Assembly (NCBI GenBank): GCA_021809545.1
Contig: JAKAYL010000008.1
Location: forward strand, 1-51,476
Direction: 5' to 3'
From: Thermoplasmata archaeon
Lineage (GTDB): Archaea; Thermoplasmatota; Thermoplasmata; Lutacidiplasmatales; UBA184
DNA: 51,476 nt
Shown: positions 23,160-31,566 of the stretch, piece after piece
Position numbering within the stretch: the first letter of the stretch is position 1
Layout: every line of letters starts with the position of its first letter
Translations under genes and position numbers: made by a program
The notes under the pieces: model-generated
Database searches by the model: none
What the model saw: only the letters and a program-made list of their open reading frames with translations
What the model was told of the DNA's origin: nothing

Positions 23160-24016
23160 GGCCTCTTCGGTACGGTGAGCTCGAGTCCATAAACCTTTCT
23201 CGGGGCCTCGACAAATGGGATGCGGAGCCGCTCGACCAGCTCGGGCTGGGTGCGGCGCAGCCACTCGACCCGGCGCGGGACCGTGTCCAAGGCGAGGACC
23301 GCCCCGGGGCGCTCGGGATCGGCGAGATAGTCGGTCTCGAGGAACCAGGTGCTGGGATCCGAAAGGGCCGCGACCACCGTCTCCCGCTTGGCCAGGAAGG
23401 AGGGGATCACCCCGTGACGCTGGACCGCGGGAAGGTAGGTCCGTGCATAGTGCTTGACCACATGGTTCAGGGGGAGGCTTCCCTTGGCCGCAAGTGCGGA
23501 GAGCTCCTCGTACCCGTGCTCGTCGAGGTCCTCTGTGTGGAGGACCAGGGGGCACCCGGATTCCCGGGCGACCCGGATCGCGGCGGCGAGCACTTCCGCC
23601 TGGGCGGCCGTGGCTTCCGGGGAGACGGGGAAATGGGCCCGCCCGACCTCCCCCAGGGCCACCGCTTTCCGTTCGCGGACGTAGCGCCCGGCAAGCTCGA
23701 GGGCCCCCACCTGGATCTCCACGGCGGCGGCGAGCGAGTGCCGTTCGGCCTGCCCGAGCATGTCGACGGGATAGGGGGCGAGCACGGGGAACACTCGCAC
23801 TCCCGTCTCCCGCTCCACGGTCCGGGCGATGGAGAGCGTGGTCTCGAACTGAGCCCGGTAGTCCTCGATAGAATCCGGCCCACGGTTCAGGTAGTTCTGG
23901 GTGGCCAGGAAGAGATGGGTTCCCCCCAGCCGGGCGAATTGGGTGGCCGCCTCCAAGCTCGCACGATCCTCGCGGAGGTGCGCGTGATGATCGACCACGG
24001 GAAGCTCTGGCATCAT
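23156..24016 (-). CDS. TatD-like metal-dependent hydrolase (COG1099-like)
   Basis: This 286-residue TIM-barrel amidohydrolase-superfamily protein has an N-terminal metal motif VDHHAHL (His11, His13). A later strand LHTEDLDEHG and the Asp-bearing strand ETDYLADP supply the other ligands. It resembles the archaeal TatD-related group of unknown substrate. It overlaps the membrane-protein gene upstream and tmk downstream by 4 bases each, so it is translationally coupled in the operon. Nuclease activity is possible by family but not shown. Confidence 0.85.
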   Translation of the reverse strand: MMPELPVVDHHAHLREDRASLEAATQFARLGGTHLFLATQNYLNRGPDSIEDYRAQFETTLSIARTVERETGVRVFPVLAPYPVDMLGQAERHSLAAAVEIQVGALELAGRYVRERKAVALGEVGRAHFPVSPEATAAQAEVLAAAIRVARESGCPLVLHTEDLDEHGYEELSALAAKGSLPLNHVVKHYARTYLPAVQRHGVIPSFLAKRETVVAALSDPSTWFLETDYLADPERPGAVLALDTVPRRVEWLRRTQPELVERLRIPFVEAPRKVYGLELTVPKRP

Positions 24017-24870
24017 GGGCTCACCTCACCCCGAGGGTCTGGGTCATGCGGGACCTGGGCGGCCAACCGCCCGTACCGTTCGAGGAGGATCCGGGTCCGG
24101 TGGAGATTGAGGTAGAGCGCATAGGCGGTCGCAGCCGGAAAGAGGAAGAAGGCGGCGTAGGACGCGAGGACAGTGTAGGTGAGCGCTCCCACGGTGGGGA
24201 TCACCAGGGTGAGGAGGATCGGCAACGATAGGCAGCAGGAGGCTCCCGCCGCCACTCCCAGGGTCGGGAGCACGTACAGGGCGGTCCACCGCTTCGGGCG
24301 GGGGCAGGAGGCGGCGTGCACGACCGTCTCGATGTTCGCCGTTACCAGGACGGCGATGAGGAATCCCATGAAGAGGCTGAACGGGACAAGGGACATGCCG
24401 TAGTCCGGGGCGATCCAAAGGTTCAGGGCCGGCACCGAGATCATGCTGAGGAGGACATTGACCGGGGTCTCCGGATTGACCAGCCCCGTCGAGAGGAAGA
24501 CGCTGGAGCCAGCATTGATCGGGGCGTAGCCGTACGTGGACAGGAGCAACTGCTCCAGGAAGAGGCCGTAGAGCAAGTAATGGATGGCAAGATAGGAGAC
24601 GAAGATCGCCGCTCCGACGGGGCGATGCAGATAGGACCAGCACCGTTCGAAGGCGGTCCGGAGAGGTCCTTCCCTGAGGGCCACATAGAGTGCGGAGAAG
24701 AGGAAGACGGCGGAGGCGGCCCCGTACACATTGAAGGAGAGCGGGACCCGGTAGGCGATGAGTATGGCGACCACCGAAAGCAGGAGGAAGATCCCGACGG
24801 TGGTCAGGGTAGGGCGGTTCTCTGGCCGGGAGAGAAAGGCACCTAGGCGGCTCGAGTGGTTGCGTACCAT
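24013..24870 (-). CDS. Polytopic membrane protein of the oxidase operon
   Basis: This 285-residue protein has about six membrane helices, near residues 21-40, 46-66, 88-108, 158-180, 198-222 and 230-256. A long exterior loop (about 110-157) lies between helices 3 and 4. Cys212-Cys213 sit in a membrane segment (GASCCLSLP), and Cys189 precedes it, which might bind copper or heme. It overlaps coxB by 28 bases and the hydrolase by 4, so it is probably made with the oxidase. Its topology parallels the protein at 30913. An assembly or metal-delivery role is inferred only from position. Confidence 0.75.
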   Translation of the reverse strand: MVRNHSSRLGAFLSRPENRPTLTTVGIFLLLSVVAILIAYRVPLSFNVYGAASAVFLFSALYVALREGPLRTAFERCWSYLHRPVGAAIFVSYLAIHYLLYGLFLEQLLLSTYGYAPINAGSSVFLSTGLVNPETPVNVLLSMISVPALNLWIAPDYGMSLVPFSLFMGFLIAVLVTANIETVVHAASCPRPKRWTALYVLPTLGVAAGASCCLSLPILLTLVIPTVGALTYTVLASYAAFFLFPAATAYALYLNLHRTRILLERYGRLAAQVPHDPDPRGEVSP

Positions 24871-25664
24871 TGGGCGTAGGCCGCCTGGGGCATCGCGTGG
24901 ATGGTGGCGATCATGTTCGCGTGCCCGATCCCGCAGAGTTCCATGCAGAAGACGGTGTAGTTCCCGCTCTCGTAGATGACCGTCCAGGCCGTGTTGGTGT
25001 GTCCGGGATACGCATCGACCTTGACCTTGAGCGCGGGGATGGCGAAATCGTGCATGACGTCGATACTATAGACCTTGAAGATGATCTGCGTATTCAGGGG
25101 CAGCACGGCCGAGTCGGTCGAGTTGTAGTGGTTGGGGTACTGGAAGGTCCATCCCCACTGGTAGGCCTCGACCATGACGGTGAGGGTGGGCGTGCCTGCG
25201 GGGTCCGAAGGGGTGCCGAGCAGCATGTTGTTGAGCGGAAGGCTGTAGGCCGTGAGGGAGAACAGGAGGATCGCGACGAAGATGTTGACGTAGAGGAGCG
25301 AGCGGGACGAGCGGCCCCGGTTCGAGGTGGGCACCCGGTCCTCATGGATCTTGTCCTCGGGGTCCGGGAGATCGGGGCGGTCCCGGTACTTCCACATGAT
25401 GAGGAAACCCTCCCCCATGATGACGACGACGATCGGGATGCCGACGAGGAGGTAGAGGTCGATGAGCCAGCTCCAGTAGCCGGCGTTCTCGGAGGGAGAA
25501 TGGGCCATGAGCGGATAGGGGAGATACGGGGACGGCGCGAAGCCGCCGATGCCCCACCGGTCGAAATAGAGGTTGAGAACGAACCACAGGATGGCGAGGG
25601 ACGCGACCAGGAAGATCGCCCCGGCGATCAGGTACTGCTTGCGGTTCTCTTGCTCCTCGGTCAT
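24843..25664 (-). CDS. coxB: Cytochrome c oxidase subunit II (CuA subunit)
   Basis: This subunit receives electrons at the binuclear CuA centre and passes them to subunit I. It has helices at about residues 12-32, 64-90 and 122-142, then an exterior cupredoxin domain. The CuA ligands are all present: His205 (DVMHDF), Cys240, Glu242, Cys244, His248 and Met251 (CMELCGIGHANM). The conserved aromatic electron-entry patch reads YQWGWTFQYP. Three N-terminal helices is one more than the usual two. The gene follows coxA by 10 bases. Confidence 0.95.
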   Translation of the reverse strand: MTEEQENRKQYLIAGAIFLVASLAILWFVLNLYFDRWGIGGFAPSPYLPYPLMAHSPSENAGYWSWLIDLYLLVGIPIVVVIMGEGFLIMWKYRDRPDLPDPEDKIHEDRVPTSNRGRSSRSLLYVNIFVAILLFSLTAYSLPLNNMLLGTPSDPAGTPTLTVMVEAYQWGWTFQYPNHYNSTDSAVLPLNTQIIFKVYSIDVMHDFAIPALKVKVDAYPGHTNTAWTVIYESGNYTVFCMELCGIGHANMIATIHAMPQAAYAQWYATTRAA

Positions 25665-25674
25665 GGTCTTCCTC

Positions 25675-28600
25675 TCATGCGAGCCAGAACACCCCGATGA
25701 GGATGAGCCCGAAGAGGGCCACGAAGGACCAAAGGTAGGCGGCCGCGGTGAGCCCGTCGAAGGGGGAGGCGACCTTCACTCCCGGGACGGCGGCCTGAGC
25801 GTTCGGGTCCGGCTGGGTCACGATCTTGGGAAGGCGGACCGCGAAGTAGGCGAGGACCGCCAGGAGGGCGAGGATGTGGAGGATGTGGAGGATGGAAAAG
25901 TCATAGAACATCGAGGTGCTGAGGTTGGTGTCGATGGTCGAGAGCCCCATACCGGCGTTCGTCATGTATTGCCAGTTCATTAAAGTGGCTCCCAGGAAGA
26001 CCCCCCCGAGGATCATCGTGGCGACGACCCCGGCCTCGGCGAGGATGAGATTCCGGGCCTTCGCCGCCCAGAGCGCGATGTAGATCATGAGGATGCTCGC
26101 CAGGAGAGAGAGCACCAGCAGCCCGTTGTAGAGCGAGCTCTGGTACTTGGACAGGACCGTCAGCGGGTCGTTGAAGTAGGGAGCCTGCCAGGTGGCGAAC
26201 AGGTAGCCGCCGACCATGGCCCCGAAGAAGGCGATGTCGCCGGTGATGAAGATGAGGGTGCCGAGTTGCACGTTCGAGAGGCTGCCGAAGGGTCCCAGCT
26301 CCCTCGTTCCGTGGTCCATCGAGGGGATGAGGTCGTCGTAGTCCTCCCGGGCCCAGCCGATCACGGCCGCCAGGAGCAGCACGAGTCCCCCGGCCAGGAG
26401 GGCGAGCGAGCCCCAGTACAGGTAGACCACGAGACCGAAGAGGGTGCCCATCGACCCGAGGCCGACGAAGAGGGGCCACTTGCTGAGCCGAGGGGCGTGC
26501 GGGTGGTCGGTGGAGGGCTCGATGAGCATCTTGTCCCCCCGGACGACCGGGTTCCCGTCGAAGTTGTGATCCGGTGGCGGGGAGGTGGTGAGCCACTCGA
26601 ACCCCCAGGCGCCCCAGGGGTTGCGGGAAGCGACGGGCCCCCGCTTCACGCTGTAGATCAGGTTGATGAGGAAGATGGCCTGGGCCGTCCCGTAGATGTA
26701 CCCCCCGATGGTGGCGATCAGGTTCAGCTGGTCGAAACCGAAGCTGGCCGAGTAGACGAAGTACCTCCTCGGCATGTTGTAGAGGAGGAGCATGGGGAAG
26801 TAGAGGGTGTTGATCCCGATGGCGGCGACCACGAAGTGGAGCCGTGCGATCGTCTCGTTGTACATCCGTCCCGTGACCTTGGGGAACCAGAAGTAGGTAG
26901 CCGCGGTCAGCCCCCAGAGGGCGGTCCCGGCCAGCATGTAGTGGAAGTGCCCGACGACCCAGTAGGTCCCGTGGAAGGCCACATCGAGGGCCGGCACCGA
27001 GGTGAGTACCCCGGTGACCCCTCCGATGATAAAGAGAGGGATCGCTCCCATGGTGAAGAGCATGGGGGCCCGGTAGCGGATCTTGCCACCGGTGATGGTG
27101 AAGATGAGGCCGAGGACGAGGGTGTCGGAGGGGATGGAGATCGCCCCGGTGGTGATCGACTGGATATCGAGCCAGCCGAGGTTGACCCCCGTCATGAACA
27201 TGTGGTGGAGCCAGACCATCGTGCTGAGGACGACGATCGCCGCCATCGAGTAGATGACGTAGCGCTTGCCGAAGATCGGCCGGCCAGAGAAGACGCTCGC
27301 GATGTCGTACATGGCTCCGAAGGCGGGGAAGATGAGGATGTAGACCTCCGGATGTCCGAAGAACCAGAAGACCTGCTGCCAGAGGAGGGTGCCTCCGACG
27401 GAGGAGAGGAAGATGACCGAGCCGAGCATGCGGTCCATCGTGAGGAGGGTCACCGCGGCGGCGAGGTCCGGGAAGGCGAGCCACATCATCGCCAGAGTGA
27501 AGAGCACGCTCCAGGAGAACATCGGGAGATCGATGAGCCGGTAGCCCTTCGCCCGCTGCCGGGCCACGGTGGTGGCGATGTTCAACGTCCCCAGGATGAC
27601 GGAGGCGCAGAGCATCAGGATCCCGAGGATCCCCACATCCATCCCCGGTTGGGGAAGGTACGGCGTCTCGGTGAGCGGTGCGTACAGCGTCCAACCGGAG
27701 GAGATGGCCCCTCCGGGAAGGAAGATGCCGGAAAGAAGGAGGAGGCCGCCGAAAAGATAGAACCAGTAGCTCAACGCGTTGAGCCGCGGGAAGGACATGT
27801 CCTTCGCCCCGATCTGGAGCGGGAGGATGTAATTGGCGAAGGCGAACCCGAGCGGGGAGAGGACGAAGAGGGCCATGAGAAGCCCGTGCATCGAAACCAG
27901 TTGATTATAAACTTCGGCATTTACAAAATTATTGTCGGGAAGGCGCAGTTGAGTCCTCATCATCATGGCGAAGGTCCCCGCCACGAAGAAGAAGTAAATC
28001 GCCGTGACAAAATAGAGGATCCCGACCCGCTTGTGGTCGGTCGTGAAGATCCACGAACGTAAGCTGTAGGGCGTTCCCTGGTCGGTCGTGGCCAGGGAGG
28101 TGAGCCCCTTCCGGAGGCTCCCGAGCGACTGGGCGTTGAAGATGAGCAGGGCGGCGGCGGCCATCACGACGAAGGCCACGATCAGGATGCCGGTCTGGAT
28201 CGGAAGCGTGAGCGCCGGGGTGACCGTGGGGGTCTTGGGCGCCAGGCCAAGGTAGAGCTCGCCGAACATTCCGGACTGGAAGTGTCCGGGGATGAGACAG
28301 ACATAGTAGTACACCCCGTGGGGGTTGGAGAAGGAGACGGCTGGGCTGACGAAGGGGCCTGCGCTCGTGAGGTTCAGATTGACCGCAGTGTGCTTGGCGA
28401 AGTAGGCGCTCAATGTCGTCGCGGAAACCACGGAAGGGTTTGCCGTCCAGTTCACTAGGTTGGTGTCGTTGGCGACCGAATCCAGAGTGAAAGTATGACC
28501 GACCCCGCCGATGTTCCCGACGCTGAAGACGACCGTGGCGTTCGTCGGAACGCTCAGTGTGTTCGGCTCGAACGTCCAGGTCGCGGTCGCGTTGAGGAAG

Positions 28601-28791
28601 CACTCTACGGTCGGCCCGGAACCGTTCGCCGCGGGTTTGAGGATGTGGTCACAGGGGCCGGTCGCCGCGGCCGGTCGCAGAACGACCTCGGCGGGGACGC
28701 TCGGCGCGATGACGAAGATGAGAAGAAAAGAGATTACGGTGAGCAGTGCGACGAATTTCAGCCTGCGCGCAGTGAACGAGGCAAGCATCAT
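25675..28791 (-). CDS. coxA: Cupredoxin - CoxI - CoxIII fusion, terminal oxidase
   Basis: This one polypeptide of 1038 residues carries three modules. After a membrane anchor (about 11-30) comes an exterior cupredoxin (about 65-183) with a type 1 copper site His99, Cys165, His170, Met175. A linker helix (about 197-217) leads to subunit I (about 245-760), with low-spin heme His in VSMHGLLM, CuB ligands in GHPEVY and LHHMF, the cross-linked Tyr, and heme ligands in GHFHYML. Subunit III is at about 850-1038 (GTLIFITGDIAFFGAMVGGY). D-channel residues are conserved, but the K-channel Lys is Leu. A TATA-like box lies 26 bases ahead. It heads the operon to tmk. Confidence 0.94.
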   Translation of the reverse strand: MMLASFTARRLKFVALLTVISFLLIFVIAPSVPAEVVLRPAAATGPCDHILKPAANGSGPTVECFLNATATWTFEPNTLSVPTNATVVFSVGNIGGVGHTFTLDSVANDTNLVNWTANPSVVSATTLSAYFAKHTAVNLNLTSAGPFVSPAVSFSNPHGVYYYVCLIPGHFQSGMFGELYLGLAPKTPTVTPALTLPIQTGILIVAFVVMAAAALLIFNAQSLGSLRKGLTSLATTDQGTPYSLRSWIFTTDHKRVGILYFVTAIYFFFVAGTFAMMMRTQLRLPDNNFVNAEVYNQLVSMHGLLMALFVLSPLGFAFANYILPLQIGAKDMSFPRLNALSYWFYLFGGLLLLSGIFLPGGAISSGWTLYAPLTETPYLPQPGMDVGILGILMLCASVILGTLNIATTVARQRAKGYRLIDLPMFSWSVLFTLAMMWLAFPDLAAAVTLLTMDRMLGSVIFLSSVGGTLLWQQVFWFFGHPEVYILIFPAFGAMYDIASVFSGRPIFGKRYVIYSMAAIVVLSTMVWLHHMFMTGVNLGWLDIQSITTGAISIPSDTLVLGLIFTITGGKIRYRAPMLFTMGAIPLFIIGGVTGVLTSVPALDVAFHGTYWVVGHFHYMLAGTALWGLTAATYFWFPKVTGRMYNETIARLHFVVAAIGINTLYFPMLLLYNMPRRYFVYSASFGFDQLNLIATIGGYIYGTAQAIFLINLIYSVKRGPVASRNPWGAWGFEWLTTSPPPDHNFDGNPVVRGDKMLIEPSTDHPHAPRLSKWPLFVGLGSMGTLFGLVVYLYWGSLALLAGGLVLLLAAVIGWAREDYDDLIPSMDHGTRELGPFGSLSNVQLGTLIFITGDIAFFGAMVGGYLFATWQAPYFNDPLTVLSKYQSSLYNGLLVLSLLASILMIYIALWAAKARNLILAEAGVVATMILGGVFLGATLMNWQYMTNAGMGLSTIDTNLSTSMFYDFSILHILHILALLAVLAYFAVRLPKIVTQPDPNAQAAVPGVKVASPFDGLTAAAYLWSFVALFGLILIGVFWLA

Positions 28792-30161: not shown

Positions 30162-30848
30162 ATGCGGCCCGGGCGTCTTTCCGTTGTGGCGCTTACCTTC
30201 GCAGCGCTGACGGTGCTCTCGCTCTTCACCGTCCTCGCTTCGGCTCACCCTGGGGACGTTGCACTGGGGATCAATCCGGGCGGGAGCTCGGCCGTGCACG
30301 TGCTACGGGCGGCCACGCCGACCTCCGGTCCCCTGGTGGAGGTCTTCGTCAACGGGACGGGCAAGATCACCTGGGATCCCACCTCCTTGGACGTCCCTTC
30401 CGGTGCCTCCGTGATCTTCGTTGTCGGCATCGTGGGACAGATCCCGCACAACTTCACCCTCGATGCGATCTCGAACGACACGAACCTCTCCATCACCATG
30501 ACCCCTTCCCAGGTCGACACCTACTTCCAGCAGCATCCCCCGTTGGTGCGGATCCCCGCCCTCAACGTCTCGGGCGCCCCCTACAAGACGGCCCCCGTCC
30601 AGATGCCCGCCCACGGGGTCTTCGAGTACATCTGCCAGGTCCCCGAGCACTTCCAGTCAGGGATGTTCGGGCACCTCTACGTCGGGGTGGCCGAGCAGGC
30701 GGCCGCCACGGGCTTTTCGCTGAACCTGATGGAGGACGCCACCCTCTTCATCACTACCCTGGCCCTGATCGTCGTCATGGCGGTCTTCCTCACCCGGAAG
30801 CACAAGCCGGCCAAGCCTCTGGCCCCTGAGGACGACGAGGAAGCTTAG
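30162..30848 (+). CDS. Membrane-anchored cupredoxin (sulfocyanin-like)
   Basis: This 228-residue exterior blue copper protein has a signal/anchor helix (about 8-28), a cupredoxin domain (about 58-176) and a C-terminal helix (about 193-211) with a short basic then acidic tail. The copper ligands are His96 (IPHNFTL), Cys158, His163 and Met168 (CQVPEHFQSGM). The segment HFQSGMFG is identical to that in the cupredoxin fused to CoxI, so the two are close relatives. The likely role is an electron carrier to the terminal oxidase. It has its own promoter. Confidence 0.92.
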   Translation: MRPGRLSVVALTFAALTVLSLFTVLASAHPGDVALGINPGGSSAVHVLRAATPTSGPLVEVFVNGTGKITWDPTSLDVPSGASVIFVVGIVGQIPHNFTLDAISNDTNLSITMTPSQVDTYFQQHPPLVRIPALNVSGAPYKTAPVQMPAHGVFEYICQVPEHFQSGMFGHLYVGVAEQAAATGFSLNLMEDATLFITTLALIVVMAVFLTRKHKPAKPLAPEDDEEA

Positions 30849-30912: not shown

Positions 30913-31566
30913 GTGGAACGGGCAGGGAAGGAAGTGTCGGTGGATTGGAGGGAGGTGCTGTCCCTCTTCCGGTTCCGTGAGGTCCGGAAGGTAGGACGTG
31001 CGCACCGTGGATGGCTTCTCGGGCTTCCCGCGGCCCTGGCGTACGTCGTGGTGGCCCTCTACTTCGGATTCGACCTCTTCTTCGTGCAGAGCAACTATCC
31101 CTATTCCCTGGCACTCTACACTTGGAACGGCCAGCTTCTCTGGTGGTACTTCCCGTATGTCGAAGTCTTGACCCCCTACTTCCAACTCGCTCTTCCCCTG
31201 TCTTCCGCAGCCGAGATCGGCATCACGGGGATCACCGTGGGCTGGGCCGTTGGTGCCGCGTGGGCGGTGGGGGTCGTCTACCACCGGAAGGAGACGCAGG
31301 TGCTGTCCGTCCCCTTGGTGTTCGCCTTCGCTCTGCTCGGAGCGATGAGCTTGGCCGCCCCCGTGACGATGGATGGGCTAGCCTACTCTCTTGCGCTCTC
31401 GGATGCTACGGCCTGGATCACCCTGATGTACGCCTGGTATCTTCCTCTCCTCGAGATCGTCGGGAACATCCTCATCCTCCTGTTCCTGGAGCTGCGGCTC
31501 CGAGGACTCAAGCTCGCGGGCGTTCCCTCTTCTCGCCGTAGGGCCCTCCGCGAACCGAACGAATAG
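30913..31566 (+). CDS. Polytopic membrane protein beside the cupredoxin
   Basis: This 217-residue protein has about five membrane helices (near residues 36-57, 98-122, 131-150, 153-172 and 176-195) and an aromatic-rich exterior loop between the first two (NGQLLWWYFPYVEVLTPYF). It has the same order of helix, long loop and three to four helices as the C-terminal part of the 24013 protein, but lacks its Cys pair. Possible starts are GTG at 30913, 30934 or 30940. A TATA-like TTATATC at 30898-30904 favours the later ones. A role in the copper or oxidase system is inferred from position only. Confidence 0.72.
   Translation: MERAGKEVSVDWREVLSLFRFREVRKVGRAHRGWLLGLPAALAYVVVALYFGFDLFFVQSNYPYSLALYTWNGQLLWWYFPYVEVLTPYFQLALPLSSAAEIGITGITVGWAVGAAWAVGVVYHRKETQVLSVPLVFAFALLGAMSLAAPVTMDGLAYSLALSDATAWITLMYAWYLPLLEIVGNILILLFLELRLRGLKLAGVPSSRRRALREPNE

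Follow-up and report, generated by a model that had tools for sequence, protein, structure and literature searches.

The window, a 51,476-nucleotide stretch of DNA from a Thermoplasmata archaeon, contains on its reverse strand one uninterrupted reading frame of 1038 codons, which starts with ATG and has no internal stop. From the N to the C terminus, the encoded chain comprises a membrane anchor, a cupredoxin domain, a Pro/Thr linker, a transmembrane (TM) helix, a 12-TM CoxI and CoxIII (Table 1). The gene for CoxII lies just downstream. Its product ends after the CuA domain, with no fused cytochrome c, and has the full set of CuA ligands; the first-pass annotation had noted CuA in this partner subunit.

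Table 1. Features of the fusion gene and of its neighbors, with positions in the window
Feature	Position	Strand	Basis or remark
Cupredoxin-CoxI-CoxIII fusion gene, 1038 aa	25675..28791	-	ORF, Pfam COX1, 2yev alignment, ligand alignment
N-terminal hydrophobic segment, residues 11-29, signal peptide or anchor	28705..28761	-	hydropathy
Type-1 cupredoxin domain, about residues 60-183	28243..28614	-	ligands, PDB profile match, SoxE score
Pro/Thr-rich linker, residues 184-199, from copper domain to helix	28195..28242	-	alignment
Linker transmembrane helix, residues 200-218	28138..28194	-	hydropathy, alignment
CoxI core, about residues 245-765	26497..28059	-	Pfam COX1, aligned ligands
CoxIII-like C-terminal part, about residues 830-1038	25678..26304	-	2yev alignment, NCBIfam CtaE_Actin
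CoxII	24843..25664	-	complete CuA ligands H205, C240, E242, C244, H248, M251; 10 bp downstream of fusion
285-aa multi-TM protein, no family match, overlaps CoxII	24013..24870	-	genus-conserved beside CoxII
Paralogous membrane-anchored cupredoxin, 228 aa, C-terminal TM	30162..30848	+	locus-conserved
4-TM protein, no family match	30913..31566	+	conserved beside paralogous cupredoxin

In the two neighbors whose contigs are longer, CoxII, the 285-aa gene and the paralogous cupredoxin are found at the same places. The 285-aa protein has a GASCC motif and a distant counterpart in another Thermoplasmata family, f11 (L072:4570-5400). Including the paralogue, at least three further cupredoxins are encoded in the window's genome. 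One cupredoxin, at the end of a contig (L053:10554-11435, G000:C47), is 58% identical to the fused one and is followed by an Ig-like stretch that is cut by the contig end.

All four copper ligands of the cupredoxin domain were found exactly where the first-pass annotation had placed them, namely H99 (28495-28497), C165 (28297-28299), H170 (28282-28284) and M175 (28267-28269), the last three forming a C-x4-H-x4-M loop. Scanned alone, the cupredoxin stretch scored 24.3 bits against SoxE, above the gathering cut-off of 21 bits; its His-Cys-His-Met site and this family score make it a type-1 cupredoxin (SoxE/Copper-bind). A profile built from the domain and its paralogues matched auracyanin B in the PDB (E 1.4e-7), which was the best solved match, and also rusticyanin, in both cases with the ligand loop aligned. 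The NCBIfam equivalog cut-off for rusticyanin was not reached by the fused domain (24.9 vs 146.7 bits), and a weak match to CopI (copper resistance) was also obtained in NCBIfam. Auracyanin, rusticyanin and sulfocyanin thus share family and ligand loop with the fused domain, but they are stand-alone proteins, whereas here the domain sits in the CoxI chain. AlphaFold models had low confidence, with a mean pLDDT of 40.5 for the cupredoxin part (8 alignment rows) and 41.6 for the full chain (10 rows), most likely because too few sequences were available.

In the CoxI part, residues 255-699 match Pfam COX1 with an E-value of 1.7e-129. The six His ligands and the cross-linked Tyr of an A-type heme-copper subunit I are present, aligned and invariant: H302, H615 and H617 for the hemes, H480, H529 and H530 for CuB, and Y484. 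The D-channel residues N320, D331 and N338 were found as well, together with E482, the A1-type Glu that precedes the cross-linked Tyr. The K-channel lysine of canonical A1 enzymes is absent and replaced by Leu558; Leu occupies this site also in families f11 and f19, and Lys in the rest of the genus's own family, f1. Losses in the K-channel have been discussed for archaeal family A enzymes (PMC8239418). C-terminal to CoxI in the same chain, the CoxIII domain makes the protein a CoxI-CoxIII fusion: Thermus CoxI+III (2yev) aligns with it from CoxI to residue 991, and the CoxIII half is matched by the NCBIfam model of actinobacterial CtaE (CtaE_Actin, E 6e-7). Pfam COX3 gave no match in this half, the sequence being too divergent.

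CtaB was found in three genomes of the genus (G002-G004). The heme A synthase family PF02628 had no match in any of the five (G000, the window's own, to G004), though one relative in the family has it, and archaeal heme A synthases can evade detection (PMC12808453). Because of the missing match in the genus, we do not call the fusion enzyme aa3.

We considered the possibility that the fusion is an artefact of assembly or annotation, by which two genes were joined, the window's genome being split into 83 contigs. Yet the same fusion, with 1034-1036 aa, occurs in three further genomes of the genus (G001-G003), from separate assemblies. Their chains are 68% identical to the window's fusion from end to end, and the frame is open through the junction in all four assemblies, including the region of the linker helix, where a frameshift or misassembly had been named as the weak point. 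These independent copies refute the artefact, which we regard as extremely improbable. By domain, the identity to the window's chain amounts to about 57% for the cupredoxin, 81% for CoxI and 54-57% for CoxIII. An alignment of the four species showed H99, C165, H170 and M175, as well as most residues around them, to be invariant. Between the two closest species, the cupredoxin region had a dN/dS of about 0.08, with 15 synonymous vs 4 nonsynonymous changes. The single-chain cupredoxin-CoxI-CoxIII is therefore, as first proposed, a real gene fusion, conserved at the level of the genus and under purifying selection.

The same domain order was searched for in other archaea with a profile spanning the cupredoxin and the beginning of CoxI. 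The profile was run on two overlapping sets, 400 genomes from the class and 390 from the phylum, which together represent about 650 different Thermoplasmatota genomes. Matches across both domains were found only in four members of this genus, i.e. the window's species and the three others. Separate genes, which had been proposed as the observation that would count against a fusion, do exist in related genomes outside the genus, whereas within it all four oxidase-bearing members have the fused form. Several candidates were rejected. The long frames of G239 and G133 resulted from upstream start choices, and in G257 the CoxI domain starts at residue 7. The long frame of G432 has no TM segment before residue 279 and, upon inspection of its first 110 residues, is unlikely to include a cupredoxin. 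In the family's genera g2, g3 and g7, CoxI is extended at its N terminus by about 250 aa, but this extension lacks a His-Cys-His-Met site.

The fusion is the sole COX1 above cut-off in the window's genome and in G001-G003, and no bd oxidase was found in these four (G001 being only 64% complete). The fifth member of the genus (G004, 98% complete) has no heme-copper oxidase or CoxI, but a bd oxidase, two Rieske/cytochrome b loci and CtaB. Rieske proteins are present in all five genomes and cytochrome b in three, both occurring together in G002 and G003. A search of 13 genomes from the group gave no cytochrome c (PF00034), while positive controls were detected. This agrees with a published survey, in which c-type cytochromes were absent from Thermoplasmatota genomes and separate blue-copper proteins adjoined complex IV (PMC9287336).

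These findings suggest that the protein serves as terminal oxidase in an aerobic archaeon devoid of cytochrome c, with a blue-copper donor covalently tethered to it, a reading that we hold to be probable. With a complete type-1 site on the chain and CuA in CoxII, it is natural to read the chain as carrying a tethered donor. The linker helix would place the copper domain outside and the N terminus of CoxI inside; with a single helix between the two, the donor would lie on the side of the membrane where it can face CuA. Electrons would pass from quinol through the cytochrome b/Rieske complex to the type-1 copper of the N-terminal domain and on to CuA in CoxII, and from there through the low-spin heme of CoxI to the high-spin heme/CuB site and O2. 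Complex III might reduce the type-1 copper either directly from the Rieske protein or via the anchored paralogue encoded nearby. The conserved Pro/Thr linker suggests mobility, by which the copper domain could reach its donor and CuA in turn. We infer the direction of electron flow, the topology and the docking to CuA from sequence, all members of the genus being known as MAGs, through their genes.

Two other functions of the fused domain were weighed against this link to complex III. The domain could be a port through which external electrons enter, e.g. from Fe(II), as has been proposed for rusticyanin and sulfocyanin. Rusticyanin is indeed among its closest solved relatives, with an identical C-x4-H-x4-M loop and an NCBIfam match, and the bin names of the relatives (DX, FK, YF) hint at acid mine drainage. 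Yet this match lies far below the family cut-off, auracyanin B is the better structural match, and complex III is present in the genus. Furthermore, homologues of rusticyanin and sulfocyanin also occur in Thermoplasmatales that do not oxidize iron (PMC5155288). We therefore consider an entry port unlikely.

Slightly less likely still is a role in assembly, whereby the domain would hold or pass copper for CuA/CuB, or stabilize the complex, without carrying respiratory electrons. The copper-protein neighbors and the weak CopI match would fit such a role, as would the fact that other kinds of N-terminal domains occur on CoxI elsewhere in the phylum. However, the complete His-Cys-His-Met site, with its four invariant ligands, is that of electron-transfer cupredoxins and speaks for an electron-transfer design.

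The tethered donor to CuA, then, remains our preferred reading, and one part of the first-pass annotation has to be amended accordingly. It had described a built-in wire in place of a soluble cytochrome c; the wire stands as the natural reading of the chain, but the phylum is devoid of such cytochromes, according to both the 13 genomes searched and the published survey (PMC9287336). What the fusion replaces is a separate cupredoxin, not a soluble cytochrome c, and further cupredoxins remain. With these still encoded in the genome, the main donor is not necessarily the tethered cupredoxin.

The origin of the oxidase was approached with trees and gene order. In a tree of the CoxI core, the genus groups with CoxI-III proteins of f11 (94/81), inside a clade shared with f19 (100/98), while its own family f1 forms a separate clade (100/100) with the genus's CoxI outside. 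The f11 proteins in question are CoxI-III fusions without cupredoxin. In the cupredoxin tree, the fused domain falls among the cupredoxins of the genus and family, apart from two f11 ones (100/100), with the internal order unresolved. The paralogue next to the fusion has the layout (TM, cupredoxin, C-terminal TM) of the N-terminal piece of the fusion.

Outside the genus, the family locus reads TatC-Rieske-cytochrome b-CoxI-CtaB, an order that fits the description of Lutacidiplasmatales (PMC9287336). There, CoxI of g2, g3 and g7 bears at its N terminus the 250-aa beta/TM extension, which has no copper ligands (L058:4350-6605, L060:8295-10628, L063:9902-12235). In G002, G003 and G004, the native locus contains Rieske, cytochrome b and, as a free protein of 234-279 aa, this extension, with CtaB further on and no CoxI. 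Free forms of the extension were observed beside cytochrome b at L087:11222-11926 and L088:6980-7684. In the window's genome, the contig stops just after Rieske, leaving cytochrome b and the remnant outside view.

The free protein looks like an N-terminal remnant of a lost CoxI. The simplest account of these trees and gene orders is that the native CoxI was lost, that a CoxI-III/CoxII pair, apparently related to that of f11, was acquired, and that a resident cupredoxin with a C-terminal TM segment was fused to it. An oxidase replacement, which the first-pass annotation had missed, would thus lie behind the fusion; it would be a clear case of such a replacement, the old locus keeping the apparent N-terminal remnant of the lost CoxI. 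More specifically, we envisage a type-1 copper donor covalently attached to subunit I, so that the relay from type-1 copper to CuA to heme works without a diffusing carrier, maybe within a fixed complex III-IV unit, the whole being assembled from a resident cupredoxin and a horizontally acquired oxidase. For this combined proposal, we find the arguments for and against about evenly balanced.

The f11 CoxI-III proteins (G112, G094, G083) are 52-60% identical to the fusion in CoxI, have CoxII adjacent and also miss the K-channel lysine, but they begin directly at CoxI, with no cupredoxin. Complex IV of the genus's own family resembles the fusion enzyme in having cupredoxins beside CoxII and no cytochrome c; it differs in that CoxI is only about 40% identical, the K-channel lysine is canonical, the cupredoxins are separate genes and the enzyme is encoded in the complex III locus.

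Among characterized enzymes, the SoxM supercomplex contains a CuA subunit II, sulfocyanin (SoxE) as a blue-copper carrier and a cytochrome b/Rieske partner. It thus has components in common with the present oxidase, but sulfocyanin is separate there, whereas the cupredoxin is within the CoxI chain here. SoxM of Sulfolobus acidocaldarius is itself a CoxI-CoxIII fusion, and a survey of archaeal fusions mentions for complex IV only that of CoxI with CoxIII (PMC11237513). The caa3 oxidases also have a tethered donor, with, in Thermus (2yev), a CoxI-CoxIII fusion as here; their donor, in contrast to the blue-copper domain on the N terminus of CoxI, is a cytochrome c and sits on CoxII.

The principle of a tethered donor is thus familiar, while no description of a cupredoxin-CoxI fusion was found in the open-access literature, nor one of a cupredoxin on the N terminus of CoxI-III. 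If our reading is correct, the enzyme would be a blue-copper counterpart of the caa3 oxidases that carries its donor on CoxI rather than on CoxII. It would also be a testable system for electron transfer from complex III to complex IV in archaea without cytochrome c. With donor and acceptor fixed in a 1:1 ratio, transfer from type-1 copper to CuA would be measurable inside one enzyme.

Other tethers, or candidates for them, were observed in the phylum. In the Thermoplasmata families f25 and f26, CoxII has extra C-terminal cupredoxin-like domains (L105:3773-5347, L106:5291-6436) with the His, Cys, His and Met ligands in place. A type-1 copper domain is tethered there too, but on the C terminus of CoxII and with an extra domain. 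This seems to be an independent solution, tethering having apparently arisen more than once. In two other Thermoplasmatota families, f57 and f38, CoxI (L110:2009-4468, L111:416-2653) bears at its N terminus a domain predicted to be extracellular, with one TM segment and a CxCH motif (CNCHNG, CTCHTDG). Pfam gave no match for this domain, which might be a further redox domain tethered to the oxidase.
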